NCBI GenBank assembly: GCA_014621425.1
Contig: JAANBB010000148.1
Location: forward strand, 19,249-83,248
DNA: 64,000 nt
Reading direction: 5' to 3'
Origin: Cylindrodendrum hubeiense
Taxonomy: Eukaryota; Ascomycota; Sordariomycetes; Hypocreales; Nectriaceae
The translations under genes were made by a program, and so were the position numbers. Below are positions 711 through 27,404 of the stretch, piece by piece (position 1 is the first letter of the stretch; every line of letters begins with the position of its first letter). Below the pieces are notes generated by a model. The model was given only the letters and a program-made list of their open reading frames with translations, was not told the origin of the DNA and searched no databases.

Positions 711-2334
711 CTAACCGTACCTGACGTCTTTTGCATCCTCCCTAAACCAGTCGTCGTTGGCGATTGTCTCCTCATTGGAAGCGTAATTGATGATGGTACT
801 CTTCGTCATCGTGTAGGCATTATAGGCATCCAACCCATTCTCGCTGCCAACGCCGCTCGAGCCTGTAACGCCTCCCCATGGGCTGCTTGGGTCATTTCGA
901 TGGTGCGTGTTGACCCAAACAATTCCCGAGTTGATCTCCTCTGACACTCTAAATGCCTGGCTGAGATCTTTGGTCCATATCGCTGCTCCCAAGCCAAACT
1001 CGCTGTCGTTGGCAAGATGAATTGCCTGTTGCTCGGTGTCGAAACCGACTATGACGATTACTGGCCCAAAAGCTTCTTCAAGCCATATTCGAGTGTCCAA
1101 ATGGCTAACGCTAGAAGTAAACTCTAGGATAGTCGGGGGATAAAAGTAACCTTTCGAGAAGTCTGTGCCATCGAATAGTGACGTCCCAGTAAGACGATGA
1201 CCTCCCGTCACGACCTTGGCGTTACCGCTCGCCGTAGCTTCGTCCACGAGAACCTCAACGTTCGCCAATTGACGAGCAGATATTAGAGGGCCCATTGTTG
1301 CCTGTGGGTTTTTGGGCGAACCCATACGACTCTCGATAGATTGGGCCTTCGTGCGTAGTTTGGACAGAAGCTCCGGTAAGATGGTATTCTGAACAATGAT
1401 TCTTGTAGCAGCAACGCAGGTTTGACCGCTGGCAACAAAGGCTCCAAATGCGATCCCATTGATGGCGGCATCGATCTCCGCCTCCTTGAATACAACCAAC
1501 GGTGCTTTACCGCCGAGTTCAGCCGTGTATCTTGCAAGATTACCACCGACGATAGATCCAATCGCTCGACCTGAGACGGTTCCGCCGGTCAGATCGACTT
1601 TGCGAACAAGTGGATGGCTCACTAGCGCTTTTCCAGTTGAAACACCAAGACCAGGAAGGACATTGAACACTCCATCAGGAATCCCTGCATCTTTCAAGAT
1701 CGGGCCCAGCAAGATACTCGTCAGGGGCGTAAGTTCACTCGGCTTCAGCACGACAGAGTTTCCCGCCGCCAAAGCTGGCGCAAGCTTTTTGACTGCAATT
1801 AGCAAGGGGTGGTTGAAAGGTGTGATCTGAACCACCACGCCCAATGGCTTGCGGTCAATCCAATTGTGCAGCTTTCCAGACGTGGGCAGCACGGGTCTTT
1901 CTTCTGTGCGCAGAACGGAGGAGTAATATTTGAACCAGCGAACCAGAGACGGAACTTGAGCTTGAAGTTCTCGAACAGCTCGTCCTGTTTGCCTGACCTC
2001 CAGCGCAATCAGGTCAGGAAGGTTCTTCGTGAGCAGCTCGGCAGCTTTATCTAAGACGTCGGCTCGTTCATGTCGTGATTTCTTTGACCAGATACCGGAA
2101 CGAAACACATTTTCTGCAACTTTGATAGTGTCGGAAACATCCTTCTCAGAGGCAGTGTGGCACCTGGCCCAGTTAGGTCTCCCGAGTTGAACTCCATGCT
2201 CAATTTGACTTACTGAGAGAATATTTCTCCCGTCGCAGGGTCTTCGACTGAGAGGCTAGTATGCACGATTAGATCGGGCTAAAATGGGATGAGGTTATCG
2301 TCACTTATTCTCACATTTCTCCGTTACCAGCCAT
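711..2334 (-). CDS. Aldehyde dehydrogenase (NAD(P)-dependent), spliced
   Basis: Oxidises an aldehyde to its acid. Proposed exons are 2328-2334, 2214-2247 and 711-2163, giving about 497 residues, close to the family's usual 480-500. The second intron (GTAAGT donor, CTAAC branch, CCAG acceptor) joins FSQ to CHTASEKDVSD, which restores the expected N-terminal pattern DPATGE. Visible landmarks are the cofactor-binding stretch ITPFNHP, the general-base region ELGGKAP and the catalytic cysteine in ASGQTCVA; the late motif EEAFGPV is also present. The first 7-nt exon is an inference: it is the only phase-compatible ATG I found (MAVEDPATGE). A CGGACCG palindrome sits 233 bp upstream of that ATG and is shared with the carboxylase cluster further on, so the enzyme may make the acid used by the acyl-CoA ligase at 14.4-16.4 kb. 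There is no peroxisomal C-terminus (ends RYG). The precise substrate is not readable from sequence. Confidence 0.88.
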
Positions 2335-5300
2335 GAACTTTCCTGCAATCCAGAGCGAGTACGTCTCCATCCCGTCGGTTGCCATTGCTGCTGTGGTTTA
2401 GGACAGATGGGCGATGGCTCGTCAATAACTTAGGCTTGGAAGACCACCTCTTAAATTGAGTAAAAGCAATGGTGGCTCTTTTGGAGCTGGAAGCTTCATC
2501 AAGAGGGGTCGATAAGTGAGGGGTAAATAGATGTACAGTCTTGTCGAGAGATAAGAGATGCGGCGTCGGACCGACGGCCGGAACCGAGCGCTTTATCTCG
2601 CTGGACACATTATGCTGATTAATAAAACCCAAATCCGATGTACGTGAGACTTCTAACAAAATACTCTGGGCAACCGTGTGACAGACCTTCTTCTCAGCAG
2701 CCTCGACCGCAGTGAAGCTGAATGGCGATTTCTATTTTTAGCACGAGTGGTATGCTCTAGGGTAGCCAGCGTGAGCAACGATGGATCGGAGGGATCCAGT
2801 CTCCAATGCAAATGAATATCGTCCTAAAAAGATAAATAGTAATGTTTTAATACAGTAACAAGACCTTTATAACCCAACATGTCCGAGTCATTGGCTGAAG
2901 GTGGATCTCATTTGTGACAGATGGTTTGCCAAGTTGTTAGTCTGCCTGTGTCCCAACATCCACTGAGTCCGTTGAAGCTCCCTCGACGACTCATAAGCAG
3001 CTGGCACGGAATGAGAGCGACAAAAGTAAACAAGTACCAATATATCAAATTGGAAACGAACTGGAGAATAAAGCAAACAGATAGACAGCAGTGCTTGACG
3101 AGACACTAACCCGCAGTGAGAGTTCGTGCACTTGTTGAACTTCGCCCGACGCTAAATCCAGTGGCAGTCAAGCTGTGCGACAACCAAAAGTGAGCTGCAT
3201 CGGTAGACAACTGGCATAACAAACAAAGAATGAAGGAAATGACATTCAAGTGTCGGAATAGCTGTGATAAACGGGCCTCAGTCAGCCTGTTCCGTAGCCA
3301 GATCTTTTTCCTGTGCTTGCAGCGTTAAGCACTGTCAACAACTGTGACACTGTCCCACAGCTGGTTCCTCGCACACGACAGCTACCCTATAGGGCCGCAA
3401 GTGATGAATCGGACAACAGAATTAGTGGTGGCAGACAATGAAACACTTGACGCAAATAAACTCATCGCGTATATCAAATCACCGTGACATCTAGACCAAT
3501 GTTTATAGTGGTGGCTGCTAGCTAATACGTTCTGTTTGAAAAGGGAAAATGAACCAAGATACGCGAAACATGATCGTCATCACACTCATCAGTTGTCATC
3601 ATGACGCCCAAGTAACAACTCAGCATATGTGATTCTAGTGACCCTTGACAAATCCTGTCTTGTGGGTTCGGCCATGGCCGAGCAAGTCTTGTGCCTTGTG
3701 GTTCCCGGTTGAAAAGCTGGTAAAATTGGCTTGGTTCACCTGATTGCGGAAATGGGTCGAATCTACGGTTTGAGTGGTGGCGTGAAAAAGAAATAAACAA
3801 ACAAAAGAACCACCAAATTGGAAGACTTGCCAATACGGACTCCGTATAGAACTCGGGACCGCCTTCTAGAATGCATTTCTCCTTGTTTTAGGTTTGCTGC
3901 CTACTCCTCGCGGCCCACGTTGCCGCTCGTGCCCGTCGATCGGAACATGTTGCCGGGCTAGTCTGTTCTTCTGCGTCGCGGATAAAATGTCGCTTGCTTC
4001 TGCGCCACTTCGTATTAGCCGAAATACGGCCAACCAACTACTCGTGGTCCAGGATACTTGCGGCTAGATCAGGCCGTGTAACCCCGCAATCTCGAGAAGA
4101 TCATTTCGCTGGCGGATGTTCTAATAATGGAAAGGGTCCCGCAGCGGTGACAGGAGAAGGAGACGAGCAACGGTCAAAGAAGAAGGGGAAGAGAAGAGCA
4201 GAAGAAGGCCAACAGCCCCGTTCAACCAACAAAGAAAAATCCTTCGGAGTCAATCAATGGCTGCGGCCTCTTGATTAACCGGAACTTTTGGTGTGTTGTT
4301 GGCAGCACATCTCCGCACTCACATCCTTCCCTCCCACTTCGTAACAATCTTTGATGGTGGGTGCTGGACACTGCCGCCTTCCGCCTTTAGGCAGATCATC
4401 GACCGAATCCGCAGGCTTAAACCGATCCCTTGACATATGACGGCTGTTCGTGACCATGCAACAGCAACACACAGGCGCAGCGACCAAGATTTTGTATCCG
4501 GCTGCTTCCCGTCGTAGACAGACAGATGTAGGCGTCCCACAGAAGACTGCACAAGACTGCCTCAGTGGGCGGGTGGGCCGGCGTATTCCTCATTGGGTTT
4601 GTCCGCCGATGCACTCCTTGTCTACACCCTGTCTTGTGACAAGGATGTGTGCATTATTGTTGCCAATCCCGGCTTACCGAGGTAATCTTAGGCAGCCTTA
4701 CCAATCACACCCTGAAGGTGATTTGCTGAAGGAAAGCTGGGGGTAGGGGGCAGGTGAGACCGTGGTAACAATTAAGGATTGAGTGCTAATGAAGAGCGTC
4801 TTTGTCGTGTGGACGCAGTGCTAGGTATGCACCACGACCGGATGTTTGCGACGGGCACGGGCCCTAGTGCATTTCTCTTACGTAAATACAATGGGCTTAC
4901 GAGACTTGCTCCAAAGTGCTTCGTCCAGCAATGTCGATCCAATTAACGTGCTGCACCCTGCGACGAAAGTGCCAGTTCTGACAGCCACAGCGACTTGCTT
5001 TTGGGGAGAGGGACCCAGCCACGCGCTGAGAAGGGGGCAGATGGGCCGCCGCCCCTGTATACCTCAAACTGGCGTTGGGAGCTCCGCCTAGCAGCGGAGG
5101 GCTCAGGTCGAGTAATCACGGCGAAGGATGAGGATGGCTTTAGGTCGGCGACAGCCCCTGCTTCAGATTCGCTGGCCAGGTCTGGCTATGGCATAATGGC
5201 ATGGGCCGTTGCCACTTATACCAGCCATGGCAGGGCCCCTTCCGCCACGCCATACATGCGAAGTGTGCCGTCAGCCCTCCCCCGTGGACGCTAGAGCTCA

Positions 5301-6270: not shown

Positions 6271-9051
6271 ATGTATTCACCTCCGGTTTGCTTTCTTTTC
6301 TCGGCGTTTGTTGTGTCTGTGATTTCCTCTAAATTTTTCCACCTTTGCACCTTTGTCTCGACCATTCCGGCCTCCGCTTTCATACTCTACCTCCCGACCT
6401 TTTTCCTCGCCGACTTTCTCGCGATATGCATCGCCAGAGTCTTTCTGCGACCCGTCAAGGGCCTGGCCTCCTTGGTCGGGGCTTTGGTCGGGTCTTTCAT
6501 AACGTAGGTCGGCTTCTCGCCACCGCCCGTCAACGCTAACCCGGAACAATAGCGTCCTCACCGTTGTCGGCGCCTCGTCGCAATTGGGATTTTACCTCAA
6601 GACCGGAGGTGAGCTGGAATGGCACGAAGCAAGAGCATATGCCATGAGCACCGACGGGATCAAGGTGCTGCTCACTGGAGGCTGGGCTGTGTTGGGGTTA
6701 ATGATCATCATCCTGGGCCTGGCCTACTTCGTCCAGAACGCGCTCTTCAGGTGGGTAGGAGATTTCTTGATGGGGATATATCTTGGAATCATCTCCGGTA
6801 TGTTAAATCACGTGTTATGGGCGGTAGCATACCAGCTGACATAACTCTAGTCTTGCGCTTTATCGTCAAGCTCCGTCATGGCAGGCCCCAGAGAAAGGCA
6901 GATATCGAGCACGACACCGAGTCGATTACCGGCCTCTCGGTCGACACCGACCCTTCGAACGACGATTCCGAATCTCATAGACTCATGGGTGGTGGAGAGA
7001 AGCCTGCACCAAGAGAGTCGAAGTCTTCCCGATGGCTCGTGTCGATTCTGTCTTGGGTGCTCAAGGTGGCAGCACTGGCCTTCCTCACAACCACCATGAT
7101 CCTTCGCCCGCATAAGCCTTTCGACCACATGTCAATCACTCTCCCGATTTCCCTTTTCGACATCTTCAAACCCGAACCCGATCATTGCGTGGAACAGAGG
7201 CGCATCATGTCGAATATGTGGCCCCTTCCGAATCTTATTGACAGCGCAAACTGGAAGGATTCCCATGGTGACTTCAAAGGCTGGGCGCCGGGCCACCACA
7301 GTGAGCTGCGTAACCAGTACAGGCAAAGGACTCCTGAGTGGTTGCCTGAAAAGATACCGCGCGGATTTTCTCGATGGGATCCCAAGAGATTCGAGGCTCT
7401 CAACTCTGTTAAACAGTCCTGGAAGCAGCAATGTCCTACCCTTCGTGTGCAAGAGCCCTATTACAACCCCGTCAACGACCCATTGAAGATTACCAACCTT
7501 GACAGCGACGTTTTGGAACCCTTGAAAGAGGCACTCGACTCCGGTTCTATCAAGGTCAAAAATGTCGTCTTCATCCTGATGGAGAGTCTCCGAGAGGAAC
7601 TCTTCCCAATTCGTCAAGGATCCGATATTCACAAGACCATCATGCGATACAACGAAGAGGATGACAGGGAACTCGTCAACTCCCGACTGGCCCACTTAAC
7701 CCCCAATATAGAGAAGCTTGCCGGGCTTTCTGGAAACTTCAAGAATGCCGACGGCGTCAGCTACGACGCTCCAGAGCTGAACTGGAAAGATAAAACGCAG
7801 CCCGGATTTGGTGGTATCAATGTTCAAGGCGGATTTACGACCGCTAGCATGTCTACCAAGAGCTTTGCCGCCAACCACTGTGGTGCCTGGCCGATGCCCG
7901 TCGAGAAATTCGAAGAGGCCGAGACTGACAGTTATCAACCGTGTCTTCCTCAGATTCTTGGCCTCTTGAATGATGTCAAGGACAACGCGACCTCGAAATC
8001 AGATGACTTTAGAGAGTGGCCATGGTACCCGGCGCTCTTCGAGTCTGTTACGGAACAATACGATAGACAGGAAAGGTTCGATCAGAAGATCGGCTTCAAG
8101 CACATCATCGCTAGAGCCGAACTGAAGAAGGATCCACGATACAACGAGTCCGACCCCCTCTGGAAGCCCGTCAACTACTTCGGGTTTGCCGAGCCCGTCT
8201 TGAAGCCGCATATCAGGGACTACATAACCAACGCTACCGCCAACAACCAACGAATTTTCATGTCACATTTCACGAGCACCACTCATCATGCTTGGGATGT
8301 ACCCGACTCTTTCCCTAAAGTCGAATACCTGCCTACGAGGGGAACTGCGAACTGGCATAAAGATTTCAACAAGTATCTGAATACGATTCGGTTTCACGAT
8401 ACCTGGATGGGAGAACTGATGCAGTTATTCGATGATTTGGGTATTTCAGATGAAACCCTCGTCGTCTTTGCTGGCGATCACGGACAGACCTTCAAAGAGG
8501 ATTACCATAAAACAGGCACCTACGAAGTCGAACATATCAGCGATTTCCGGGTACCGATTACCTTCCGACACCCCAAACTTCCCTCAATCCAATACGCGGC
8601 AAATGCGACGACCGTCTCCGTCCTGCCGACAATCCTCGATCTTCTTATCAACAGCAAATCGCTCAACGATAAAGACACAAATATTGCTTCCGACCTGCTT
8701 AATGATTATGAAGGTCAATCTCTCATTCGACCATATAAGACGTCAGATAAAGGCCGGCGTGCCTGGAATTTTGCTGTTATCAACTCTGGCGCGGGGTTGC
8801 TTGCTGTTACCTCTGCGGATGCCCCTTGGAGGCTGGTTATGCCCATGGGCAAGGTGTTTGAGTATACATTTACAGACCCACGGAACGATCCATTGGAACT
8901 GAGTCCTATCTCTGCTTGGTCCATCGACATCTTGGTCGAAATGGTTCGTGTTGCGTATGGAGAAGAGGCTGCCAAATGGGTCACCGAGGCTCCGGCAGTA
9001 GCTCATTGGTGGAGTTTAGAACGCCAGCGGTTATGGAAATATCATTTGTAG
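6271..9051 (+). CDS. Polytopic membrane protein with sulfatase/alkaline-phosphatase-fold domain
   Basis: Exons 6271-6503, 6553-6797 and 6851-9051 give 892 residues. The first about 200 residues form several hydrophobic segments (for example FVVSVISSKFF, ILYLPTFFLADFLAICIA, VLGLMIIILGLAYFV), followed by an acidic linker and one more membrane segment (AALAFLTTTMIL). The large C-terminal part is a sulfatase-fold domain: NVVFILMESLRE is the metal-site strand and LVVFAGDHGQ is the characteristic Asp-His-Gly metal ligand motif, with HFTSTTHHAWD between. The architecture resembles membrane-anchored phosphoethanolamine or phosphoglycerol transferases and uncharacterised fungal sulfatase-domain proteins. 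Substrate unknown. It shows no functional tie to the neighbouring carboxylase genes and may be a conserved resident that interrupts the cluster. Confidence 0.82.
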
Positions 9052-9250
9052 AATGGGTTGATGCATTATAATATCAACCAAGAATTTAATTAAGATTTCT
9101 TAAAGAGACAATACGGCGGGTTACAGTGATCGCTATTGAGCAGTCTACACCCATCTTGCTACAATAAGCCCCATTTGCAACTTTTGAAACTCTTGATCTC
9201 CCGGGGTTCCTTTGCTAGAACATGTGTATAATTTCTGTCCAGTCTTTTAC

Positions 9251-11601
9251 TTAATCGATAAGAGTAGCCCATGTACAAGGTGAAGGTAGACTAGATAAGA
9301 ATGATACAGGACCAGGTTGAGTCTTCGGTACTTCTTGCGATAAGCCTGCATAGTCAACCAACGACCAAAGAAAGTCCTCTGACAACATTTCTAAGACATC
9401 GCTCGACCCTGGACTGTCCTGAAGATAAGCATACGCATTTAACTGTGCGTTTAATTCATAAAGCTTGTTTAACTGTAAACGAGGTACTATTAGGTATGCG
9501 TTGTCAAAGAACATTGAACCGAGAATAGACTGACCATGATTTTTGCGATCGGCCAGAGCCTTGCAAGCCTTTCCAATACCTCCATACTCTGGTCAAAATA
9601 TAATTGCGCGTCATACTGGTCGACACTGTCGAGTTGCTGTTGGGAGCCTAACGCTAAGCAATGAATTCCTGCAGCGATTGCAGCACAATACGGATAGAAA
9701 GACGAGTCAAGTGAGACCCCGCTCCCGGAAGTGGCTGCGAGTAAACTCGTAAGCTGTCTTGCGTTTTCTTGTGCCAAGTGAGAAACGCGTAAGGCGAAAC
9801 TTTTCGGTGCCCTTCCGGCGATGGGCTTTAGTCGAAGTCGTATTAGGAAAGGGTGGTTCAGCAGGCAGTGACAGAGGTGGAAAAGGACATGCGCAAAGAA
9901 GAGGTGGCCAATCTGGTGCTCATCAATGGCATCGTCTCCTTGAGGCCCACTACAAACAAGATCGAGAATGGACTCTTTTCTGCCCTTCAGATATGACTCG
10001 AGCAGTAATAATGATGCATTTGGCGCTGTAAAGTCTGATTGGGGATGCCAGGGTGGTAGATTTTCGGCTCCAGTTCGGCCATGAGCGGTTCTTGTGCAAC
10101 GAGCGAGGATTGACGAAGTCACGATAGTCAGACTGAACAAGCTGGGGGAATCAGCCAGAGCAACATCCCAGCTCAGCATTCCCTGCAGTGTTGGTGTCTG
10201 TTTCCACTCTTCGGTATGGAAGGTTTCCTCGTCGCAAGGGAGCTGCAGGGTGCAGTCGTGATCAAAGATGGTTGCCGGCCGCGACCGAGCGCATGACATC
10301 AGTTTGTCCACGAGATATATAGACCAAAAAGACCTTCGTCGCTCCTCGCGTTCCGTGGCTGGAAGAAATGAGGACGGCTCGGACATGAGATCGGCATCTT
10401 GAGAAAGCCGAATGGCAAGACCCAGGCGCAACCAACCGGAGCTGGTCCTTCCCGCTGTCGATGCACCAGTTGAAGTCAGTACTATTCGATTGAGAAGCAA
10501 TTGAATGTCTATTACGGCAGGATAGTGGATGATGGAGTGGAAGAGATTGCGTGTGGATTATCTTACCCGTGTAGTCAACAATAGCGAGTAAGGTGACGGT
10601 CTGTATTACCGACAAGTCGAGATTGTCGTCTACACTTAAGTGATCCTTAATAACACATAGCCATGATTGGCGAGAGTATTCACTTGAGGCTTCATGGATC
10701 CTCCCAGCGAAGTACGGGGCATCTGAGAAGCGGACGGCCAAAGCCAGCATGGCAAAGATCAGGCACTTGGGTACTGTCGCATTATCCAGTCGATGTTCGA
10801 AAGAGCCTCGGTGGAAGAATGAGTATGGCCGGTTGTGGACGCGTGCAAAGTATGTATCGACGAGGCATCGTAGAACGTCGGAAGGGGGCATGCGGTGGAA
10901 TCGGCTGCTCGAGGATTTCATTGTCAGCGCTGATGGCATTCTGGTGGTGAATGGAAAAATTGTAGGCTAGGTACTCTTCCAGTATTTTTTCTTCTGTTAG
11001 TGAGATGATGGCATCTTCGCAAGCCTGGAACCCTGAATCTACTTCAAGTAGGTCATTGGGTGACGGCATTTCCAGGTGGGTTTCCGCGATTATTGAAGAG
11101 GACGGTGGCCCACTGTAGTTTTTGGATGATATTAGGCAAATTTCTGGCAATACAAAGTATTGTAGCTTACGTTTGAAGCTTGGAGTTGTCTTGGCTTAGT
11201 CTGCACAAAGCCATCTCAATTGTAGAAATTCGTTCCAGGAGGTCGGCCTGGGCAAGTTAGCCAACATGGAACGTCGATGAATGTGTCGGAAAATATTCAC
11301 ATCTTGTGTAACAGGAGGCGGCAAAGCAGCACCCCCGCTGAAATTGATAGCCGTACTTGGGTATGGCTCGTAGATGCAACCGCGTCTGTTCTGGCGACAG
11401 TGGGTGCAAATGGGTCGTTGTCCAGAACACTTGATCTTTCGTCGTCTGTTGCCAGACGAGACGTCATACACTTAGCTTTGCTCCACTCCCGCCAGCAAGC
11501 GGGCTCGGTATTCTCAGGTCATTGTTTACATACCTGCAATTGGCGCATGCCTGGCGGATGCGCTTAATGACACCCGTGGGCGATGTTCCGTGAGTCTGCA
11601 T
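9251..11601 (-). CDS. Zn2Cys6 transcription factor with fungal-specific regulatory domain
   Basis: Candidate pathway regulator of the surrounding cluster. Seven exons can be joined with consistent phase: 11534-11601, 11301-11445, 11171-11247, 10975-11112, 10567-10904, 9535-10454 and 9251-9472, giving 635 residues. The binuclear zinc cluster is split by intron 1: CANC is on exon 1 and RRKIKC...CTHC on exon 2, keeping the C-x2-C-x6-C spacing. A short coiled-coil-like linker (LLERISTIEMALCRL) follows. The middle-homology domain begins near DVLRCLVDTYFARVH and includes RRRSFWSIYLVDKL. The C-terminus FLWSLVDYAGL is typical of the family's last helix. The join between exons 4 and 5 is the least certain: a GTACCT donor paired with a CAG acceptor restores the frame. 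No CGGWCCG site was seen in its own promoter. Confidence 0.85.
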
Positions 11602-16778: not shown

Positions 16779-18785
16779 ATGTCGACCACATACTCTTACC
16801 CTGTCATACCGTCAAAGCTCAACATCCACGATCAAGATCTCAAGAATAATCGAGAAAAATGGGCACCAGTTCTGGATAGGTTCGAGACTGCCCTGCAGGA
16901 TGTCTCCAATGAGGGCACCGCCGCCTCGCTTGCACGTCATCAAAGCCGCGGCCAATTACTACGTATGTGAACCCGACTATACACTTCGTGTCTACAGCTG
17001 GCAGGGCTGACAACATTGATCCAGCACGAGATCGTATCGCACTATTTCTTGACCAAGACTCTCCATTTATCGAACTGTGTCCCTTCGCGGGATTCGGAAA
17101 TCCCGATTCCACCCCATGCGCAAATTTGATCGCCGGCATCGGGACAGTAAGGTAGCTGAACGATTGAACCCGCACGCTGTACAAGGCTGACGCAACCAGC
17201 GGGAAAATATGTTTGATCATGTCCCATATACCAACTCAGAGTGGTGGTGCTTGGAATGAGATGACAGGTTAAACAGCCTTATCGAAGCTGAGACACTCTG
17301 CTAATGTCAATTACAGTGCTCAAGGTCAACCGAATGCTTGAGATAGCATTCGAAAATGATTTGCCCTTGATATCTCTTGTCCAATCGGTAAGACCACTCT
17401 CTGTATTGCTCCCATTTACAGCAGCTGAACATACTCTACTTTAGGCCGGTGTCTTTCTTCCACAACAGTTCCGCGTTTTCCACAAGGGTGGCCAGCTATT
17501 CCGCGACCTCGCCGTCCGAAGTCTTCATGGCATGCCATCGTGCGCTGTCGTCTTTGGATCTTCCACCGCCGGAGGAGCTTATCATCCCGCCTTGTCAGAT
17601 TATACCATCTTTGTTGCCAAGCAGGCTCAGACTTTCCTCGCAGGACCGCCCCTGGTCAAAATGGCCACCGGTGAGGTGATTGGCGCCGAGGAGCTAGGAG
17701 GTGCCGAGATTCATGCTACTCGGACTGGCCTCGCGGACCAGATTGCCTCAGACGAGTAAGCAACACTTAATTGACTACATGGGCAGCTCTAAACGAAATT
17801 GGCAGGTTTGATGCAATCCACAAGGCACGAGACTGGGTCGCCACACTGAAACCTAGATCAAGGCTTTCCCTTCCAGAGTCCACGTTGCCTGCACCTCCAA
17901 GATATCCCATCGAAGACTTACTGTCGCTCGTTAATCCAGATATTCGTAAGGCTTTTGACATGGAGGAGGTGGTCTTACGCCTCGTCGACGATTCGAGGCT
18001 TTCCATTTTTAAGCCCAAGTATGGACCAAACATGCTCACTGCCTGGGCTCACATCATGGGTGAGTACCAAACCAACTACACTTGGTAATGTTAATTTCAC
18101 TCTGACAATCTTACAGGATTCCCGGTTGGAATTGTGGCGAACCAGATATCGGTCATCAACCCCAATGAGGCAGCCAAGGCAGCTCAATTTATTCGGCTTT
18201 GCAATCAAGAGTGAGTTACCATGTTTCATTCGGTGCCCAGATAATAAACTAATGTACTACTGGTGAAGGGGCACTCCAATTATATTTCTCCACAACGTGA
18301 CTGGCTTCATGGTTGGTGCAAAAGCTGAGCATGCGGGTATCATCAAAGTCGGAGCGCAACTCGTCTCGGCTGTATCCTCCTCTCAAGTTCCCCACATTTC
18401 GATTATTCTAGGTGCGTCGTATGGAGCTGGTAACTATGCTATGTGTGGTAGAGCATACAAGCCTCGGTTTCTATTCACCTGGCCTACGGGAAAATGCAGC
18501 GTTATGGGGCCAGACCAACTTGCTGGCGTTATGGAGCATATCCAATCCGCAAAGGCTCGCCCAAAGGGGGAAGAAGTGTCCGCAGAAACGATCCGAGTGC
18601 AAACCGAAAAGTTTAAGAAACAGGTGCAGACGGATGCAGAAAGCTATTCTACCAGTGGTATGCTGATAGATGATGGCATTATTGACCCAAGAGATACACG
18701 CGACGTATTGGGAATGTGTCTTGAGGTTGTTGGAGGGGCAAGGTCTTCAGACATACAGAGTAGTAGATTTTTGGCGCGTATTTGA
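16779..18785 (+). CDS. Acyl-CoA carboxylase carboxyltransferase (beta) subunit, methylcrotonyl-CoA carboxylase-like
   Basis: Transfers CO2 from carboxybiotin to an acyl-CoA. Eight exons join cleanly: 16779-16962, 17025-17151, 17200-17267, 17317-17387, 17445-17755, 17806-18059, 18117-18210 and 18269-18785, giving 541 residues, the normal size. Intron 1 joins RGQLL to PRDRIALFLDQDSPF, matching the family pattern. Both oxyanion/acyl-pocket glycine motifs are present: GSSTAGGAYHPALSDY in the N domain and GASYGAGNYAMCGRAY in the C domain, along with FLAGPPLVKMATGE and NVTGFMVG. The sequence between SLVQS and the first glycine motif (AGVFLPQQFRVFHKGG...) is noticeably unlike the usual HFGRIFFNQ type of methylcrotonyl-CoA carboxylase, so acyl specificity may differ. 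No mitochondrial presequence is evident (starts MSTTYSYPVIPSK). The C-terminus is ARI, at best a weak PTS1-like end. Its partner is the alpha subunit at 24958-27404. Confidence 0.9.
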
Positions 18786-19013
18786 GAAAGATCTAGATAA
18801 TTTTTGCCTATCAAACTTACCATTAGAAGTCCCATTATTTTATTCGACTATATGATGGTGTATTCTGGACCACTCCACACTTATCAGTATACATCATCAT
18901 TTAGAACTCAAACTTGAATCACGCATATAAATTGTGTCTCAAATGGTGTTAGAGAAGTGTATACATGTCTTCAAATTATGGCATGCCTAAGATATATGTA
19001 TATGCAACTCAAG

Positions 19014-20471
19014 CTATTTCTTTAGCGCCACCTCGATGATGCTCTGGAAGGCACCAGGAATAGAAAGGACCGAGCGGATCTCCAGACTTTCATCTGCCTC
19101 CTTGAGCAAAGCTTTCCATTCGTCCAAAGTGCGCTCCATGCTGTTAAAAGCCGTGAGCATTTGTAAGTCGGCAGCAGAGAACATGCGTTGAACCATCGCT
19201 GGCAGCACGCGATTACCATCCCCATCGAATGCTGGCGGAATCACATTCTCAAACAGTAAGATGCGAGCACCCGACTTGAGACTCGGCACCAAATTTCGTA
19301 GAATCGAACTGGCATCCTTGTTTGGCCAATCGTGCAGAATCATCTTGAGAAAGTACACATCGGCTGCCACAGGCTGAGGGCTGAAAAAGTCGTGGACTTG
19401 GTAGGAGATGCGCGACGCTAGTTCAGGCTGCAAATTCGATTGGAATTTGGCCTCGTTTTGCTGTAGATCCTGGACGACAAGCTTGAGTGCAGGGAAACTC
19501 TTGGCGAGGGTTATGGCATCATGTCCTGCTGAACCTCCGACCTGGTGGGTTTGGTTAGCCATGCTTTCGACCTGAATTCATCCGAGGTAATGAACCCGAT
19601 CAAGTTCAACTCACATCAACTACAGTAGCTTCGCCGTAGCTTTTCCAATCAAAAGCAGTTAAAAGATCGCTTGACTTGATAGCCTCAGTCGACGAGGCTA
19701 TCTGCATTGCCTCAGCGAACCTATTGGCGCGGTAGCCTTCTGGCTTCCCCTCGGGTGTCCTGTCAAGATACTCCCAGCACGATGTCGGGTAACCAAGGCG
19801 GTCAACGTCAGCGAGTGAAACACCGGATTCCAGAACCTCCTCGCTCGGCTTTTCCTTCCCTGCGCTGAACTTTCTGAGAGACTCGGGGACGTGCAAGGTC
19901 CCAGGGCGCAGATCCTCCAAATTGTGACCCAAAAAGCTACGCCAGGTTGGGTATTTAGCTACATAGGCGGTGGTTGATGTGTGGGTCAAATTGCCCGAGC
20001 CAGGTGGCTTTTCCTCAAAGAGCCTCATAGTCATGGCATGCCTGAGGACTCGTCGCACAGTGGACTCTGGAAGGTTAGTCTTGACAGCAATCTCACTGTA
20101 ACTTGCAGATCCGCCAAGCGGAACGGCGGAGAAAAAGTCGAACTGATTCAAGACATCGAGAATCATCGTATCGTGGTTCCACTTCGCTCCCTGTTAGTAA
20201 GGCCCTGGTTGGCGTGGAGGCTACTCACCAAAATGGGCTGCATGAATACCATCATTTCCGGCCCAAGAGCCAAGTGGTATAGATCAGAAGTAGCTTCGAT
20301 CAGCTGAAATTGGAGTCCCAATAATTGGGGGTCTTTGGGGTAGCGTTCCAGGCCCGATTCCTGGAATGATGGTGCGGGGTGGCCATTATCTTCCAAGTAT
20401 TTTGTGATACCCTTGGCAGCATCCGAGATGGATGCTGCGAGGCTGGTGAGTGTCGGTTCTGGTAAACTCAT
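19014..20471 (-). CDS. O-methyltransferase, family 2 (COMT-like), SAM-dependent
   Basis: Methylates a hydroxyl or carboxyl of a small molecule. Exons 20229-20471, 19615-20190 and 19014-19541 give 448 residues with phase-0 introns. The N-terminal part is the dimerisation/winged-helix region (ILDVLNQFDFFSAVP, ETVRRVLRHAMTM-like helix). The SAM-binding glycine motif is assembled across intron 2 as VVDVGGSAGHDA. The catalytic histidine lies in MILHDWPNKDA, and the late RMFSAADLQMLTAFNSMERTL segment matches the fungal secondary-metabolite members of this family (the sterigmatocystin/aflatoxin O-methyltransferase type). It ends 228 bp from the stop of the convergent carboxyltransferase gene. No exact CGGWCCG element was found upstream. 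Its presence suggests the surrounding genes make or tailor a product rather than purely degrade one. Confidence 0.9.
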
Positions 20472-22465
20472 TTCGGTATTGATTTACTTAATGTGGATTC
20501 AACCGGAGCAATTGAAGTAAACTAGGTGGAGAATCGGTACGAAGATATCGTGAACACAAGGGTCGTGGGGATTCTCTCGACCCTTGGCTTCTATTTGTAC
20601 ACTACTTTAATTATGCATCCATCTGTGCATCCATCTGCGTTGTTTATATTTCGAACCGAAGTCCCATGTCAGTATCGTGCAATGCTGACATAGCCATCAA
20701 ATATTAACCTTTTCGGACTCTCGGATCCAGCTTGACAGACGAGGAGAGATAAGATCGGCAAAGGTTCTTCCATTTATTGCAGGAACAAGGATATCACTGG
20801 GCACGAGACGCCAAAAGAGTCAGCACTAGGACGCAATAATGAAGTGTGTGGCTCCGCGGTCAGCCTTGCCAAGGAATGGGGACGAAATCTCACCAAAAAC
20901 TCAAATACTTCCGAAAAAATTGGAGACCAGGCATAAAACTGGCTGCATCGAACGCGTCACGACTCATAGCAAGGGCAATATAGATAAGGTGAGAGTATGT
21001 TGCGCTGAAGGGTAATGCAGACAAGAGATGAGCGTGTTGCGTTGATAGAGAGCATGGTGACTAGACCTTTGGGCATACATGTTTGATAAGATAAAAAATA
21101 TGATAGATTCGTCGCCGTCACATTCGATCCAGAGATTAGGGGTTGATTGAGTGTGGACCCATAATTTGATGATTGCATTGATCTGGGATGCCTCCAGCCC
21201 CTCTTTCTTGGAGCGGGGTTTCGGGCCAATCTCACCCCCTCTGATTCAGGTCAGAATACCGGCTGACTCGGAGACGAAATTCAAGCCCACCAAAATCCGT
21301 TTCCGCTTCTAGAGCTGAGCTCCTTCCGCTTCAAGCTGAGTCGGTGCTGAGATCGGGCTGAGGAATCCAGAGTCCACGCTAACGCGGACTGAGCTTGCCC
21401 ACTTTTGCGATCGTATCACCTGGCCCCCTGCGAGGGCCAGATCTGGGACCACATCCTTGTTTTGGGCACCAGTCAGACCTCCCTACCTCGAAAACCCGAC
21501 CTCAGTGATCATATCCGGATAGACCTCTACATTCAACGCCATCATTGCTTAGATTATGTGCCTCTATTTCCCCTACTAGGCCTTAAGTGGCTGCCATCTC
21601 CTTGTCAAGGATTTGGGGACAGTGATGATAATGTAGAGTCAATCACGCTTCAATGAGGAATTCACAATATTATTTATATGGTTTAAAACGGGTGAGATGG
21701 GCCGAAATACGCACTGGAACAAAATAACCACACCCACCAACGCAAAGCAGCATTAGGTTAGTGGTCGGCATCTGGGTATCGAGAACACAGCCACACAACA
21801 TCCAAGAGAGCGATTGGCACTCTGAATGTCAGTAGTATGTGGTCATATCCCAAGTGGTCGTAATCATCTAAGAATGGGGCAAAAAATAAACAAGTATTAA
21901 GGCTGTACTGGCAGCCGGGCGGGAGTCCCTGAAAGTAATGAAGGAAAACCCTGAGTCTGTTAATAAAAATCCGATAAATCAGGATGTAGCATACGCTAAA
22001 GATCATGCATGAGTATTGTTTGATAGATGGTGTGGTAACTTCGGCAGACGGATCGTTTGGCGGATGGACCGCTTAGCGGATACCACAGCACATCACTCCC
22101 TTGTCCACCGTCCCCTTCCCTAAAAATGAATAGTTCCTTGCACACCGCTGAATTCGACAGTGCCTGTACGAAAACTTTGAACAAGCTGGAAGCCACGTTG
22201 CACTTGCTGACCTAGGCGGTATCAGGTAGACGTACTAGCACTACTCATAAACTTGGTGGCCTGACTGGCCTGACTAGTAGTTACAGAGCATAGAAAATCG
22301 CAATCCAATACGTAGACAAAGTCCGGCAGAAGTTGCCACATAATTTTGCTTCCTACGTTCGTGCTTCGGTTCAATACCACGCTAATCGGTAACCCGGGTA
22401 CTGTCAAATATTACTTTCCAGACGATACGCTGGACCCAAACTAGAGGCACCAGGGCCTTTCTCAT
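20472..22465. other. 2 kb intergenic region
   Basis: Separates two minus-strand methyltransferase genes. Only short open frames without recognisable motifs are present. A small direct duplication (CATCCATCTG repeated) occurs near 20620-20640. I see no RNA gene or transposon end I can support. Confidence 0.45.
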
Positions 22466-23953
22466 CTATTCAGGCTTACGCCCGTAGACAACTCGCACAG
22501 TGAAATAGCTATGGATCTCACGGTTACGAAGCGCCTTACGGATATCCATGAGAAAGATCTGGTATTCATCCTTGGGCCACCCAAGAACATGGTTCCACAG
22601 TGCGAGAGTGTAGCCTTGAGTGATGCGTGAGAATGCGGCGTTAGTCAACCAGAGACTGGGTTGCTTACCTTCAATGTCATTCTCTAATGTCAGCCTAACA
22701 AACCGGCCAACCTCAGCGAGGTTGGGATCCTTTGCCCAACCTCCAATAGGAACCTAATCCACACGAGTCAGCACATGCGTAATTCTGTCACTAATCCAGG
22801 AATGCTCACCTTGTAGTCCATCGTCTTTATGTCAGTGAAGCCAGCCTCCTTGAATCCCTTAGGTTGTAAATGATCCATGAAAAATGGTCGACCTATGGCT
22901 TGGCCACCTTCGTCATACAGCCTTGTGCACAGGTCCAACACAGGTGCCAGATCCGCGGTTCCATCATCGCTGCGAAACTGGATATTGGCCTCGGCAGACT
23001 CCACCCAGCCCCCGGGAGCACAGCAGCGGAAGGCCTCTTTGTACAGGGCGGTCCAGTCTTTAATGGCGCCAAAAAGGTATCGGAGATGAATGAAGTCAAA
23101 TTTGCCGTCATCCCAGGTCCAGCTTTCAGTAACGTCATCAATTTCGAAGCGCACATTGGGAGGAACCCATTTGGGCTGACAGGGGGAAAGGTCGGTGCCA
23201 ATCACTTCAGCACCCGGGTATTGGTCAGCGAAGTCACTAAGGTTGTTAGGCCAAGAGTCATGTCAGAATGATTAGGTCCTCATACATTGCCCAGATCCCT
23301 TGCGAGATGGTCAGTAAAGATCTAATAATGGGAGATGTGGAACCCTACCGCTTCCTGTGCCAGCATCGAGGACTTGCTATATGGTAAGTTGCAGACATCA
23401 GTAAGGAGCCTTGTGGCAGCTTGAACCGGTCGTAATCATACACACCTGGACATCATCGGCAATAGGGGCAAGGAATAGGCGGTTGCCAAAGAGGAGCGTG
23501 AGGTAGTGGTGACTGGTTGAAATGTGAGCATGGTATAATTGGGCTACATGATCTGAAGTCGCACGTTATATCAACAGACTCTAGCTGCTTTTGATCGTTG
23601 GGAAAAGCATAATCTACCGTAAACCTGTCACTGTGGAATGTGCGCCCCTGGATCTGGCGGTATTCAAGGATGCTAGCTGACATTGAGGCGGTAGAACTTT
23701 CTCTGATATCACGTTAGAACAAAAGAGTTTGTTACGAAATGAAGTTTACTTACGCATCGGTACCCAAGGATGAGTCGCCATCGTCTCGGACATCTTCCTG
23801 AAGGATTTTTAGCTCCGTCTACGTAGAAAATCGATCATCGAAGCCTGTGCTCACGTTTTCCCCGGGGATAAGGTCGTTTGGGGGTGATCCCGCCCCACCA
23901 TCAGGGGACGTTGCCTGAGCTGGCGATTTCGACCCGACACGCTGATCTGTCAT
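22466..23953 (-). CDS. LaeA-like class I SAM-dependent methyltransferase
   Basis: A methyltransferase of the large fungal LaeA/UMTA-type group. The gene is broken by many short introns, all with usable signals. Assembled order: MTDQRVGSKSPAQ start at 23953, EDVRDDGDSSLGTDA, SSTASMSASILEYRQIQGRTFH, FPNDQKQLESVDIT, HHYLTLLFGNRLFLAPI, then the SAM motif VLDAGTGSGIWAIDFAD, VIGTDLSPCQPKWVPPN and FEIDDVTESWTW, then the family C-terminus VPIGGWAKDPNLAEVG and LALWNHVLGWPKDEYQ, ending GRKPE. The motif order and the SSxxAS/SSILxYRxxxGRxxH block are characteristic. Members act either as regulators or as tailoring enzymes in secondary metabolism; sequence does not decide which. In exon 1 an in-frame stop is removed by a GTGAGC...TTCAG intron of about 57 nt. 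Confidence 0.86.
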
Positions 23954-24957
23954 AGTGATCTTAGAGCACAACCGGAGCGACACAATGGTGCTTTTAGCAA
24001 GAAAACAAGAGCAGAGCGGGTATTTGGTTTTAGAGTGGTGATATAAATGAGGGGAATACCCCCTGTGCTCGTGCCACACTGATTGCCTGATTGTGGGCCC
24101 AGTCCGTCCGAGTTGAAAGTTACCCAATGAAAGTGTCCAAACTGCTCTTTGTTGCGGGGGGGCCAAGCAGGACTCAGTCGCTGAGCCGGGGACTGAGGAG
24201 GGCCATGAGAGCGGCCACCTAAGATGACCAAGACCTCACTTGAGTTTCGTCTCAGGATACCGGTATATCAAAGGAAGTTGTGAATTCGGCCTCGATCCAA
24301 CAAACAATTTGACTAGTCTCTGATGGGAGAATTCAATTCAGCACATACATCTACAAAATCATAAATGTGAATACACTGTTGAGTGAAATTGCGCTATCGA
24401 GATAAAGTGTATCGCTACGCGGGTATTTCCTGATGAAGACCATAACCCGGGAATATATAGACAAGCATGACAGAAACACCATTACATTGCGCAAGACGGG
24501 ACAGAAATATACAGCATCGTCATTATGGGCTTCGTAGGGGAGTATAAAAATCTGCGGCAGCTACTATCGTAAATGATCTGATGCATTGCTTCGCATGGTC
24601 AGCGTCGAACAGTATTAGGCTTAGCGGATGGACCCCAAAGAGGAATGCGGGTGGGGACCTGAGATGGCCGTGTTCCGAGGCACATGCCTGTCCGGTTTAG
24701 CCCCGCACGGAGATACGCGGGCAAATACCCGTCCGGTCGGTCCGCCTTTGAATTGATGGACTCGGAGACGGGAAGACGGACCGGGGATGCGTTTTTCGGA
24801 AGCTTGGCCATATGTACGTGTTAGAGCTTCGCTTCAATTTAGTTTATAGAGTCAGCCATTCAGTACATTTGTACGGGTATTCGAATGCCCGTGTCTTTGA
24901 TAAGCCAGCCAGAGTCTTCATTCGATTCCATCAACCTCGTGTACAGCAGAAGGCGAG
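23954..24957. other. Divergent intergenic region, methyltransferase / carboxylase alpha subunit
   Basis: About 1 kb between divergent starts. The half near the alpha subunit is GC-rich in CGG/CCG triplets and holds two CGGWCCG palindromes; the half near the methyltransferase has none. No coding frame was recognised. Confidence 0.5.
24738..24783. promoter_or_regulatory. Two CGGWCCG palindromes upstream of carboxylase alpha subunit
   Basis: CGGTCCG at 24738-24744 and CGGACCG at 24777-24783, 175-220 bp upstream of the alpha-subunit ATG. Position and sequence match the sites upstream of the aldehyde dehydrogenase, fusion and ligase/beta-subunit genes. Confidence 0.55.
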
Positions 24958-27404
24958 ATGGAGACATTCCCACAGCGCGAGCCTCTTTTTCTGGCGCCTC
25001 AGCCAATAGACCCCGAAACAGGCCGACTGGTTATCCAAAAGGTACTCATCGCGAACCGAGGCGAAATTGCATGCCGCGTTATTGCGACTTGTCGGAAGCT
25101 GCAAATTCTCACTGTAATTATATACGTGCAGGAGTAAGTATCCCAATTTGAGCGTCTAGATCTAGATCAATTGGCTTATCAGTAATCAGAGATGTGGATC
25201 TACGACATGTTATCGAGGCCGACGAAGCAATCAATGTGGGAAGCATCTCGAGCCATTCGGTCAATCCATTTCTAAACATTGATCTCCTCGTCAAAACGGC
25301 TCTTGATACCAAATCAAGTGCCGTGCATCCTGGATATGGGTACCTGAGCGAAAATGCCGATTTTGCGATTCGTGTAGCAGAGGCTGGCCTGATCTTTCTC
25401 GGCCCCAGCCCTTCCGCCATGTCGACCTTGGGCGATAAGAGAAGGTCAAAGAAATATCTCCAAGATAACGCACCAGATGTCCCTTTGATTCCAGGCTTCT
25501 CCGGATCCAGTCAACAGGTGGAAGACCTCGAACAAGCTGCAACAGAAATCGGGTTCCCGGTCATGCTCAAGGCATCTGCGGGTGGAGGCGGAAAGGGCAT
25601 GCGCATTGTCTGGGAGTCGGCACAGCTGCGTGACGAATTGGAGAGAGCCCAATCCGAGGCTTCAAGATCTTTTGGGTCTAGTGATTGCATCCTGGAGAAG
25701 TACGTCGAAAGCAGCAAGCACGTGGAAATTCAGATTATTGGCGACAAGTACGGAAACGTGGCGAGCTTTTTTGAGCGAGAATGCTCAGTTCAACGCCGAC
25801 ACCAAAAGGTCATCGAGGAGACACCATGCATATTCCTCTCAGACGAAGTCCGACGCGAAATGGGAGAAACTGCTGTCCGCATCGCCAAACTCATTGGATA
25901 TGAGAACGCCGGGACTGTCGAATTCGTTGTGGACGTCAAGACATCTCAGTTTTTCTTCCTCGAAGTGAACGCGCGACTACAGGTCGAGCATCCCATCACC
26001 GAGGAAATCACCGGGACGGACCTCGTGGCTTTGCAGTTATTTGTTGCTGCAGGAGGCAACTTGACATCGCTGCCGCAGATGGAGTCTCTCAAGCAGACGG
26101 GACATGCGATTGAGTGTCGACTGTGCGCTGAGGACCCTTCTCGGGATTTCTTCCCAGAACACGGCACCGTCCAACTTTGGCGCCCGGCGGATGGCCTTCT
26201 TGGACCAGGCAGGAATATCCGCTATGAGACGGCCATACAAACAGGCTCTTCGGTTTCAATCCACTTCGACTCCATGATTGCGAAGATTGTAGTATGGGCC
26301 CCAACGAGAAATTTGGCTATAGAGAAGATGGCAAATGTGCTGGCACACACAGCCTGCGTTGGCGTCAAGACCAACCAGTTATTCCTACAGCGATGCCTCC
26401 TTGACCCGATGTTTCAAAATCCACGGTACAACACATCCTTCATAAGTCAAAACCTTGATCGACTTCTCCGGCGTCTTGATTGGGGAGAAAGGGAGTCTTC
26501 AAGACAGCTTATAACCGCCATTCCGAGTCTGTTTATCCGCAAGCTACCCCAATACTTGCCCAGAGGCTCATGTAGCAGGCGCCCTTTTCGGAATGTCCGA
26601 AAGCAATTCCGGAACCAGCGCTACGATCAAGTCAGCGTGCATTGCGACGTTATCACGGGCGATTGGCCAGGCGAGACCAACGCACCTGGCGAACACGAAC
26701 AGCCGACACTTTGCTTATGGATGCCTGCACCTCCACAGGCGAATTCACAATGTGAGCAGGTGAAATTAATACCATTGGGTAGGGAACAAATATCCGAAAA
26801 TGAGAAAAACCAGAAAGAAAATGCCAAGCTCCTCAACAAAGCGGCGATGGCAATTTCCAGCCAGTACAACTATATCAGTAATAAACTTCGACATATGGCG
26901 GATGATTCGACGGCCCCTGTTGATGCCAAGGTCATCCGATGGGTTCCCATCTTGGAGACCACGCCTCAAGGCTCGAGTACTTCCTTCTCAGCAACCCTCG
27001 AGGTCTCAATTAACGGCTCAAAAGTCCTGGCACATTGCGTTACGCCTTGTAGCGAGTCAGGTCTTCTGAATCACTCGCAAGTTGTGTTTTGCCACATCCC
27101 ACAACTTGGAACCTACATTCAATTCCACAGACACAGCCTGCTGTCATATACCGAGGGCCTCAGGTCTACTGTCAAATCGCAAACAGACGAAGTGCAGAAT
27201 GACACCCTGGCACCAATGCCGTGTAAGGTTCTTTCCCTGCAGAAGGGCATTGGAGAGGAGGTGAAAGTAGGAGAGTCCGTTATGGTTATAGAAAGTATGA
27301 AGATGGAAGTCAGCATTAAGGCAAGTAAGGAGGGGCGGTTTGAAACATCATGGAAGGCCGGCGATGCGGTAGAAGAGGGTAAAATCCTTTGCCGGATTGC
27401 GTAG
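24958..27404 (+). CDS. Biotin-dependent acyl-CoA carboxylase alpha subunit (biotin carboxylase + BCCP), MCC-like
   Basis: Carboxylates biotin with ATP and bicarbonate and carries it to the beta subunit. Exons 24958-25133 and 25190-27404 (56-nt intron, GTAAGT/TCAG) give 796 residues. Biotin carboxylase starts at KVLIANRGEIACRVI; HPGYGYLSENADFA, the glycine-rich ATP loop KASAGGGGKGMRI, CSVQRRHQKVIEE and the Glu/Asn/Arg site EVNARLQVEHPITE follow. A connecting BT-type region precedes the C-terminal biotinyl domain, whose acceptor lysine (about residue 763) is in ESMKME rather than the more common AMKM. The N-terminus METFPQREPLFLAPQPIDPETGRLV shows no arginine-rich amphipathic mitochondrial presequence, unlike ordinary fungal methylcrotonyl-CoA carboxylase alpha. 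The C-terminus CRIA is not a PTS1; import could depend on the beta subunit. It probably pairs with the beta subunit at 16.8-18.8 kb. Confidence 0.92.

Follow-up and report, generated by a model that had tools for sequence, protein, structure and literature searches.

Beta-methyl branches block beta-oxidation, and bacteria are known to have a carboxylation route around this block. A locus on an 83,248-base contig (C55) of Cylindrodendrum hubeiense (Nectriaceae) raises the question of whether filamentous ascomycetes have a comparable route and which acids it would serve. The original prediction for the window, a 64,000-nucleotide stretch of this contig, described a carboxylating gene set like the bacterial Liu and Atu systems and distinct from housekeeping leucine degradation.

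Gene content of the locus

All of the genes named in that prediction are present, as follows (exons from spliced models):

711–2385, minus strand: aldehyde dehydrogenase, 521 residues, three exons, PF00171 (5.3e-136)
9254–11471 (approximate extent), minus strand: Zn2Cys6/Fungal_trans transcription factor adjoining the lyase–hydratase gene; Pfam domains PF00172 at 11199–11471 and PF04082 at 10265–10966 and 9493–10557
11973–13839, minus strand: HMG-CoA lyase–enoyl-CoA hydratase fusion, 601 residues, PF00682 and PF00378; two exons, 13412–13839 and 11973–13350
14411–16373, minus strand: AMP-forming acyl-CoA ligase, frame-broken in the assembly; exons 16000–16373, 15680–15963, 15583–15622, 14821–15530, then from 14755
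16779–18785, plus strand: carboxyltransferase (beta subunit), 541 residues, PF01039 (8e-119); eight exons, 16779–16962, 17025–17151, 17200–17267, 17317–17387, 17445–17755, 17806–18059, 18117–18210 and 18269–18785
19017–20483, minus strand: O-methyltransferase, PF00891 on 19017–19577
22469–23262, minus strand: last exons of a class I SAM methyltransferase, PF13489 on 22771–23262
24958–27404, plus strand: biotin carboxylase with BCCP (alpha subunit), 796 residues, biotin motif ESMKMEV; two exons, 24958–25133 and 25190–27404

The hydratase and lyase, predicted as two proteins, are a single fusion, and the proposed unbroken chain was overstated: the aldehyde dehydrogenase lies ~9.6 kb from the lyase–hydratase gene, with an unrelated sulfatase-family gene in between, and its membership in the pathway is doubtful. 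The regulator is a candidate member by its position. Within the range covered, the predicted lack of an acyl-CoA dehydrogenase is borne out: the best PF00441 candidates of the genome, 18 in the list, all lie on other contigs.

Over 268 residues, the ligase shares 67% identity with the ligase portion of A. terreus P0136. It has one frame break, near residue 501, in a run of A that lies between 14653 and 14672, and its last block, in the other frame, ends in PKL. Because the ligase is frame-broken and the beta and alpha genes, 6 kb apart, may have been split by inserted genes, the locus could be a decaying copy that no longer works as a unit in this strain. We consider this very unlikely. The break falls in a homopolymer, where an assembly error may account for it; the reading frames of beta, alpha and fusion are uninterrupted from end to end and keep their conserved motifs; the fusion is 83% identical to an Ilyonectria relative; and other ligases could activate the acid.

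Placement of the carboxylase

The window beta subunit is closer to the beta subunits of methylcrotonyl-CoA carboxylase (MCC) and geranyl-CoA carboxylase (GCC) than to that of propionyl-CoA carboxylase (PCC). Nine solved chains match it at E values of 1.6e-129 to 4.1e-99, and the next, a PCC, at 2.8e-65; six of the nine are named MCC or GCC, two are propionyl- or acetyl-/propionyl-CoA carboxylases (9tps, 4q0g) and one has no such name. The solved GCC (5ikl) ranks sixth, after MCC-type chains, for the whole subunit, the pocket piece and the family profile alike. In the beta tree, the fungal proteins form a clade with support of 100/100. AU tests, on groups named after a first tree, rejected its placement inside the MCC clade (p 0.008), with the housekeeping beta subunit alone (p 2e-7) and inside the Pseudomonas GCC clade (p 0.001), the last of which removes true GCC orthology as a candidate. 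Thus, of the expected phylogeny, the position outside MCC and apart from the housekeeping enzyme stood, whereas the subunit belongs with Pseudomonas GCC no more than with MCC. From its sequence, the window beta subunit is a member of a separate fungal lineage. The alpha family, with an MKM motif in all 120 homologs listed, is also apart from MCC (AU p 0.04), and joining it with GCC gave p 0.06, no firm rejection.

The genome does not lack other MCC genes. A separate set comprises an MCC-beta gene beside a gene like that of isovaleryl-CoA dehydrogenase (IVD), an MCC-alpha gene and an HMG-CoA lyase gene (C573, C67 and C262), and because the genome keeps this set, we ruled out that the window encodes the housekeeping leucine pathway. 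The mitochondrial MCC and the window carboxylase share their domain architecture and ~40% identity. The housekeeping enzyme has the Phe and insertion described below, presequence-like starts and a divergent IVD-like neighbor; the window set lacks the Phe, the insertion and such a neighbor, and its starts show no evident presequence by inspection. Nor do the window proteins fit the normal leucine-catabolic clade with a mitochondrial location: the beta subunit falls outside the MCC clade, and the fusion carries a PTS1 with no evident presequence. These results support the predicted distinction from leucine degradation.

According to PMC4673880, MCC is marked by Phe191 preceded by a three-residue insertion and GCC by Gly162 without the insertion; in the Pseudomonas enzymes this site decides between geranyl- and methylcrotonyl-CoA. 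In all 11 AtuC-like proteins examined, the Gly that aligns here carries the number 162, in agreement with that numbering. The window beta subunit has Gly165 at this site and no insertion, whereas the housekeeping subunit of the same genome has PDE followed by F. Among 120 beta homologs, the site is G in 105, A in nine, T in four and a gap in two; F occurs in none, and the insertion in none. At site 122, close to the pocket, 118 of the 120 carry Trp (the other two have gaps), in contrast to the Ile of Pseudomonas-type GCC. Because the no-insertion, Gly state occurs across several bacterial groups, and because L036, a member of the Bacteroidota group drawn nearest in the tree, has a beta-keto acid cleavage enzyme as its neighbor and not terpene genes, this state may reflect ancestry rather than mark a substrate.

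These features bear on whether the substrate has only five carbons, in which case prenol, prenal or senecioate would yield 3-methylcrotonyl-CoA for a second, peroxisomal MCC-type pathway ending in acetoacetate and acetyl-CoA. The enzymes do make a complete C5 chain, and by overall sequence MCC-type chains rank above GCC. We nevertheless regard a C5-only pathway as unlikely, given the absence of both MCC marks from all 120 homologs, the position of the beta subunit outside the MCC clade and the effect of F191G, which left Pseudomonas MCC essentially inactive on 3-methylcrotonyl-CoA (PMC4673880).

The lyase–hydratase fusion and its conserved partners

The fusion is identical to a public protein, P0121 (100% over 601 residues). 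It starts with MNPNVRIVEVG, with no evident presequence by inspection, and ends in KNKSRSKL, that is, with the PTS1 SKL. PTS1-like tripeptides end 112 of 120 fusion homologs, compared with 0.7% expected by composition, which suggests that the lyase–hydratase is probably peroxisomal. A paralog in the same genome (L028, on C445) has the same architecture and 48% identity to the window protein but differs in a presequence-like start, an end (LKQ) without PTS1 and a location near a class III CoA-transferase and an acyl-CoA dehydrogenase rather than a carboxylase. The beta subunit ends in LARI and has no presequence-like stretch by inspection. We dropped this tail as a strong PTS1 because the AR[IML] ends resemble the VARF and VFRM ends of bacterial carboxylases (bacterial GCC ends in VARF), and counted only the fusion tail as strong. 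The alpha subunit has no evident presequence by inspection and no PTS1.

Against the NCBIfam HMG-CoA lyase subfamily model NF004283, the lyase part scores 363.5 bits, above the cut-off of 246, as a C5 route would also have it. The hydratase part scores 98.4 bits against the gamma-carboxygeranoyl-CoA hydratase model NF004227, below its cut-off of 426, and reaches the cut-off of no NCBIfam hydratase model among the 25 matches listed. Its single-Glu pattern is that of AtuE- and LiuC-like proteins and suits both substrate classes.

The set is not confined to this genome. Judged from shared contigs and locus tags, homologs of alpha, beta and fusion share contigs, often as neighbors, in many filamentous ascomycetes: beta and fusion on 26 contigs, alpha and fusion on 34, alpha and beta on 19 and all three on six. 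By consecutive locus tags, at least six other fungi have adjacent alpha and beta genes, and in Sporothrix eucalyptigena the fusion gene stands in the same row. Aspergillus nidulans has an alpha homolog, ANIA_10656. Thirteen of 120 alpha homologs are annotated as single beta–alpha proteins; the 11 junctions compared have differing linkers and lack the usual LAR[IML] end of beta, so these look like merged models of neighboring genes, and we dropped true beta–alpha fusions, although this is not proved. Database names for the proteins of the set are methylcrotonoyl-CoA carboxylase, propionyl-CoA carboxylase, carboxyl transferase or hypothetical.

Both methyltransferase genes lie between beta and alpha in C. 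hubeiense, and a terpene synthase and a PDR-type ABC transporter are 17–26 kb away. Together with the name 'putative secondary metabolism biosynthetic enzyme' on some homologs, this arrangement would suit a biosynthetic module in which a secondary metabolite is built from carboxylated or HMG-type CoA esters, the methyltransferases decorate it and the Zn2Cys6 protein controls expression. This reading is improbable: no PKS or NRPS domain was found in the selection of window ORFs scanned with Pfam, a ligase with a lyase makes a degradative set, and the conserved adjacency described above concerns the carboxylase and fusion. Species with consecutive locus tags have no methyltransferase between alpha and beta, and we therefore rejected the two methyltransferases as pathway members; they are probably outside the conserved set.

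A proposed peroxisomal route and its bacterial relatives

We favor, with modest confidence, a reading in which the four core genes specify a pathway, outside the mitochondria and probably in peroxisomes, for isoprenoid-type acids that are 3-methyl-branched and alpha,beta-unsaturated. The ligase would form the CoA ester, and the alpha and beta subunits would carboxylate its gamma (beta-methyl) carbon. The hydratase domain would then add water to give an HMG-type 3-hydroxyacyl-CoA, for cleavage by the lyase domain fused to it. Because this cleavage would remove the beta-methyl block, peroxisomal beta-oxidation could continue. The alpha subunit may be imported piggy-back on beta. We infer these reactions and a geranyl-like or longer isoprenoid substrate.

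This pathway is best read as Liu/Atu-like in logic and a member of neither system. The Pseudomonas systems (AtuC/AtuF, AtuE, LiuE) have the same order of ligase, gamma-carboxylase, hydratase and lyase, and Atu shares the Gly pocket without the MCC insertion and the single-Glu hydratase pattern. Unlike both, the fungal set has its own beta clade, a fused hydratase–lyase and a probable peroxisomal location; unlike the Atu cluster, its contig has no match to AtuA (PF07287) or AtuD (citronellyl-CoA dehydrogenase, of the acyl-CoA dehydrogenase family PF00441) among the best candidates scored.

A 2011 survey gives GCC as observed in bacteria only (PMC3199775). The literature searched yielded no description of this fungal pathway, the titles and abstract openings on peroxisomal geranyl-CoA nothing relevant, and searches for MCC in Grosmannia and for AN10656 no reports. 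A branch of a published tree may be this very carboxylase family; the passages concerned give it no function, location, cluster or fusion.

More tentatively, filamentous ascomycetes at large may possess, in their peroxisomes, an equivalent of the acyclic-terpene pathway of bacteria, with a separate, so far uncharacterized gamma-carboxylase lineage and a bifunctional hydratase–lyase providing a beta-methyl bypass for mono- or sesquiterpenoid or longer acids. A conserved route of this kind would offer these fungi a definite means of consuming plant terpenoid acids, correct the database names and open a separate carboxylase lineage to enzymology. Among bacteria with a no-insertion carboxylase, a Frankiales operon groups ligase, aldehyde dehydrogenase, beta, alpha, hydratase and AtuA together.

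Gene set and its separation from leucine degradation

The cluster is conserved across fungi and probably peroxisomal, and its carboxylase forms a separate lineage; in these points the picture goes beyond the original prediction. The gene set that had been predicted is confirmed, with aldehyde dehydrogenase (ALDH), ligase, carboxylase beta and alpha, hydratase and lyase functions all assigned by spliced models and Pfam.

Features of the cluster region (window positions)
711-2385, minus: ALDH; spliced model and Pfam
6613-9048: sulfatase-family gene, between ALDH and the remaining cluster genes; Pfam scan
about 9254-11471, minus: Zn2Cys6/Fungal_trans regulator; Pfam
11973-13839, minus: HMGL-ECH fusion (HMG-CoA lyase plus enoyl-CoA hydratase); spliced model and Pfam
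14411-16373, minus: acyl-CoA ligase; spliced model and Pfam
16779-18785, plus: carboxylase beta; spliced model and Pfam
between beta and alpha, minus: O-methyltransferase and a second methyltransferase
24958-27404, plus: carboxylase alpha; spliced model and Pfam
28.2-30.5 kb, downstream of alpha: HET-domain gene

The fusion protein (601 aa) is 100% identical to G7Z17_g7055 (P0121) of Cylindrodendrum hubeiense (Nectriaceae, Hypocreales). The reading frame of the ligase is broken once, in a stretch of A residues at 14653-14672, and its final block, read in a different frame, ends in PKL; the break may be an assembly error or real decay.

Searching the C. hubeiense genome (47.5 Mb, 798 contigs), we found PF01039 carboxyltransferase matches at three sites: the window, an ACC-like 2,200-aa frame on contig C788, and contig C573. 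The last encodes a 569-aa 3-methylcrotonyl-CoA carboxylase (MCC) beta subunit with an N-terminal extension and the Phe and insertion of its class, divergently oriented to an isovaleryl-CoA-dehydrogenase-like gene (named by inspection; PF00441 match). On contig C67 there is an MCC-alpha whose start resembles a presequence, and C262 encodes an HMG-CoA lyase that begins MSLLRSGICRACRRSQLRWQRGFAT. Because the genome holds these further genes, the window set is distinct from the housekeeping leucine pathway; identities between the two are 39.6% for beta, 40% for alpha (biotin-carboxylase part) and 39.7% for the lyase part. The predicted lack of an acyl-CoA dehydrogenase also held, none of the 18 PF00441 matches listed genome-wide (best candidates scored) lying on the window's contig. 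The description as a Liu/Atu-like system is partly supported: it stands in its separation from the housekeeping pathway and is weakened elsewhere: membership of ALDH and the methyltransferases is doubtful, and the ligase is frame-broken in this assembly. No description of the cluster was found in a literature search judged by titles and abstract openings, with most subscription journals outside its coverage. Lombard & Moreira 2011 (PMC3199775) describe GCC (geranyl-CoA carboxylase) as seen in bacteria alone up to that date. Separately, C334:422200-425900 carries a pyruvate-carboxylase-like gene (named by inspection) in several pieces, which may reflect introns or decay.

Substrate pocket and ancestry of the carboxylase

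According to passages of Jurado et al. 2015 (PMC4673880), a three-residue insertion comes just before Phe191 in MCC-beta, geranyl-CoA carboxylase (GCC) beta has Gly162 without insertion, and swapping the residue alters substrate preference. Counted in our alignment, residue 191 of the mitochondrial MCC beta chain 8j4z_J is the F of DHFGR, opposite HKGGQ and a three-residue gap in the window protein. The site is correctly located, since all 11 AtuC-like proteins examined have their residue 162, a Gly, in this column. Among the best 120 of 7,999 scored beta homologs, the insertion is absent from all 120, and the Phe191-equivalent is G in 105, A in 9, T in 4 and a gap in 2. Eighty bacterial relatives comprise insertion plus F (37), no insertion plus G (37), Y (4), A (1, the Frankiales locus L061) and a two-residue insertion plus G (1). 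The open state is therefore widespread and may be ancestral; it is better evidence against an MCC type than for the use of geranyl-CoA. Two observations count against a close tie to GCC. The solved GCC ranked sixth, after MCC-type chains, in each of three structure-chain comparisons (whole protein, pocket piece and family profile). Site 122 carries Trp in 118 of the best 120 of 7,999 homologs (2 gaps), whereas four Pseudomonas-type GCC rows that were examined have Ile.

A quick beta tree of 102 rows, comprising the window and housekeeping proteins, 22 fungal homologs out of the 120 and all but two short sequences of the 80 bacterial relatives (78 rows), placed all 36 rows with F and insertion, including housekeeping beta, on one side of a branch with support 100, and the fungal family in its own group. 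A careful tree of 43 of these rows recovered the fungal family (100/100), MCC (100/99) and Pseudomonas-type GCC (100/100). AU tests rejected grouping the fungal family with MCC (p 0.008), GCC (p 0.001) or housekeeping beta (p 2e-7), a result weakened by the fact that the groups had been chosen with the first tree already in view. Bacteroidota no-insertion enzymes are drawn nearest, but the long fungal stem (~1.2) makes the exact neighbour unsure. The alpha tree (37 rows, locus L087 left out) likewise has a distinct fungal family (100/100), with housekeeping alpha inside MCC; its AU tests were weaker than those for beta (p 0.04 for MCC, 0.06 for GCC), it contains several long branches, and neither Myxococcota nor Actino/Acidobacteria come out as a single clade. 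Pseudomonas, Marinobacter and Alcanivorax loci were called atuCDEF-like by gene order, beta being followed by an acyl-CoA dehydrogenase, a hydratase and alpha; the gene names agree with passages of PMC4097962.

The lyase-hydratase fusion and its probable compartment

All of the best 120 fusion homologs have both PF00682 and PF00378 in precomputed annotation, and exact motif counts among them are RDGLQN 118, HFHDTYGQ 104, GLGGCP 120, PGA.GNV 85 and LSE[AVT]K 86. The GG-x-G and single-Glu pattern of the hydratase part, common to AtuE-like and LiuC-like neighbours, is not specific, because other aligned hydratases share it. Pseudomonas LiuE is listed, in a passage of PMC4097962, as lyase for an isohexenyl compound, so an HMGL-type domain can accept a larger substrate.

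The window fusion ends SKL, and the C-terminus matches [SACP][KRHQ][LMI] in 112 of these 120 homologs, against 0.7% expected from composition, although their relatedness means that they are not 120 independent cases. The endings are AKL (50), SKL (35), PKL (12), ARL (6), AKI (5), PRL (3) and SKI (1); the eight non-matching ones are VKL (3), TKL, IKL, HKL, GAD and VAA. This PTS1 is the strong datum for the probable peroxisomal location. The string VEVGPRDGLQN, exact in 113 of the 120, begins within 13 residues of the protein start in 86. It follows 15-22 residues in 14 proteins and at least 26 in the other 13, and these 13 may have extensions or faulty starts. Beta ends AR[IML] in 114 of its best 120 homologs, compatible with PTS1 but weak alone, because bacterial carboxylases end VARF (GCC) or VFRM (MCC). 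Inspected C-termini of window alpha (RIA) and ALDH (RYG) lack PTS1; alpha would be imported jointly with beta.

Unlike the window fusion, a 48% identical paralog on contig C445 has its own presequence-like start and no PTS1. The genes near this mitochondrial-looking fusion (C445:433310-440087) include a class III CoA-transferase, an acyl-CoA dehydrogenase and one that is alcohol-dehydrogenase-like, and the genome profile search gave no PF01039 match on C445; the locus is a candidate pathway for acids of the 3-methylglutarate or 3-hydroxy-3-methylglutarate type.

Co-location in fungi and related loci

Matching contigs by identical size across samples of 120, 120 and 112 rows (best 120 per search), we found beta with fusion homologs on at least 26 contigs (9 under 500 kb), alpha with fusion on at least 34 (19 under 500 kb), alpha with beta on at least 19 and all three on at least 6. 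By arithmetic, at least 67 contigs, the window's own included, carry two or more; given such sampling, absence carries no weight. Locus tags are frequently consecutive or one apart:

SEUCBS139899_002911/2912/2913: alpha, beta, fusion
N7486_000708/709/711: tags consecutive or one apart
QQX98_003185/3186; ACHAPT_008467/8468: beta, fusion
FE257_007121/7120; VTN77DRAFT_4970/4971; N7469_004897/4898; A1O3_10200/10201: alpha, beta

The core probably includes the ligase as well, because one A. terreus gene model (P0136) joins a partial ligase, 67% identical to the window ligase over 268 residues, to a lyase-hydratase. In thirteen of the best 120 alpha homologs (for example P0271, P0280, P0285) the annotation gives beta and alpha as one protein; they resemble merged neighbouring gene models, and some may be real fusions. 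The alpha homologs examined, among them P0285, P0286, P0289 and P0326, have a similar peptide, R-x-x-L-[FY]-[VL]-A, N-terminal to the biotin carboxylase domain; in window alpha this type lies within residues 1-20.

Among bacterial no-insertion carboxylases, the Frankiales operon (L061; 4273-14996) resembles the window, with ligase, ALDH, beta, alpha, hydratase and an AtuA protein in a row. In the Bacteroidota locus (L036; 7971-14579) the carboxylase is accompanied by an acyl-CoA dehydrogenase and a beta-keto acid cleavage enzyme, neighbours that point elsewhere. The AtuA family (PF07287) is expanded in C. hubeiense, with 27 exon-wise matches on 10 contigs. C247:18001-47735 holds three AtuA-family genes, two acyl-CoA ligases (ending SKL, QKL), two enoyl-CoA hydratases (SRL, SHI) and an SDR, and forms a second, peroxisomal-looking cluster without a PF01039 match. 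At C744:1409-7330 an AtuA-family gene adjoins a class III CoA-transferase and an apparent short-chain dehydrogenase.

Elsewhere in the window, the terpene synthase gene at 44118-46841 (minus), with a polyprenyl synthase 3' part (PF00348) and a weak, sub-threshold terpene-synthase match in its 5' part, probably encodes a bifunctional di-/sesterterpene synthase. Near it, at 49208-53287 (plus), a single 1,360-codon open frame encodes a PDR-like ABC transporter with two ABC_tran and two ABC2_membrane stretches.
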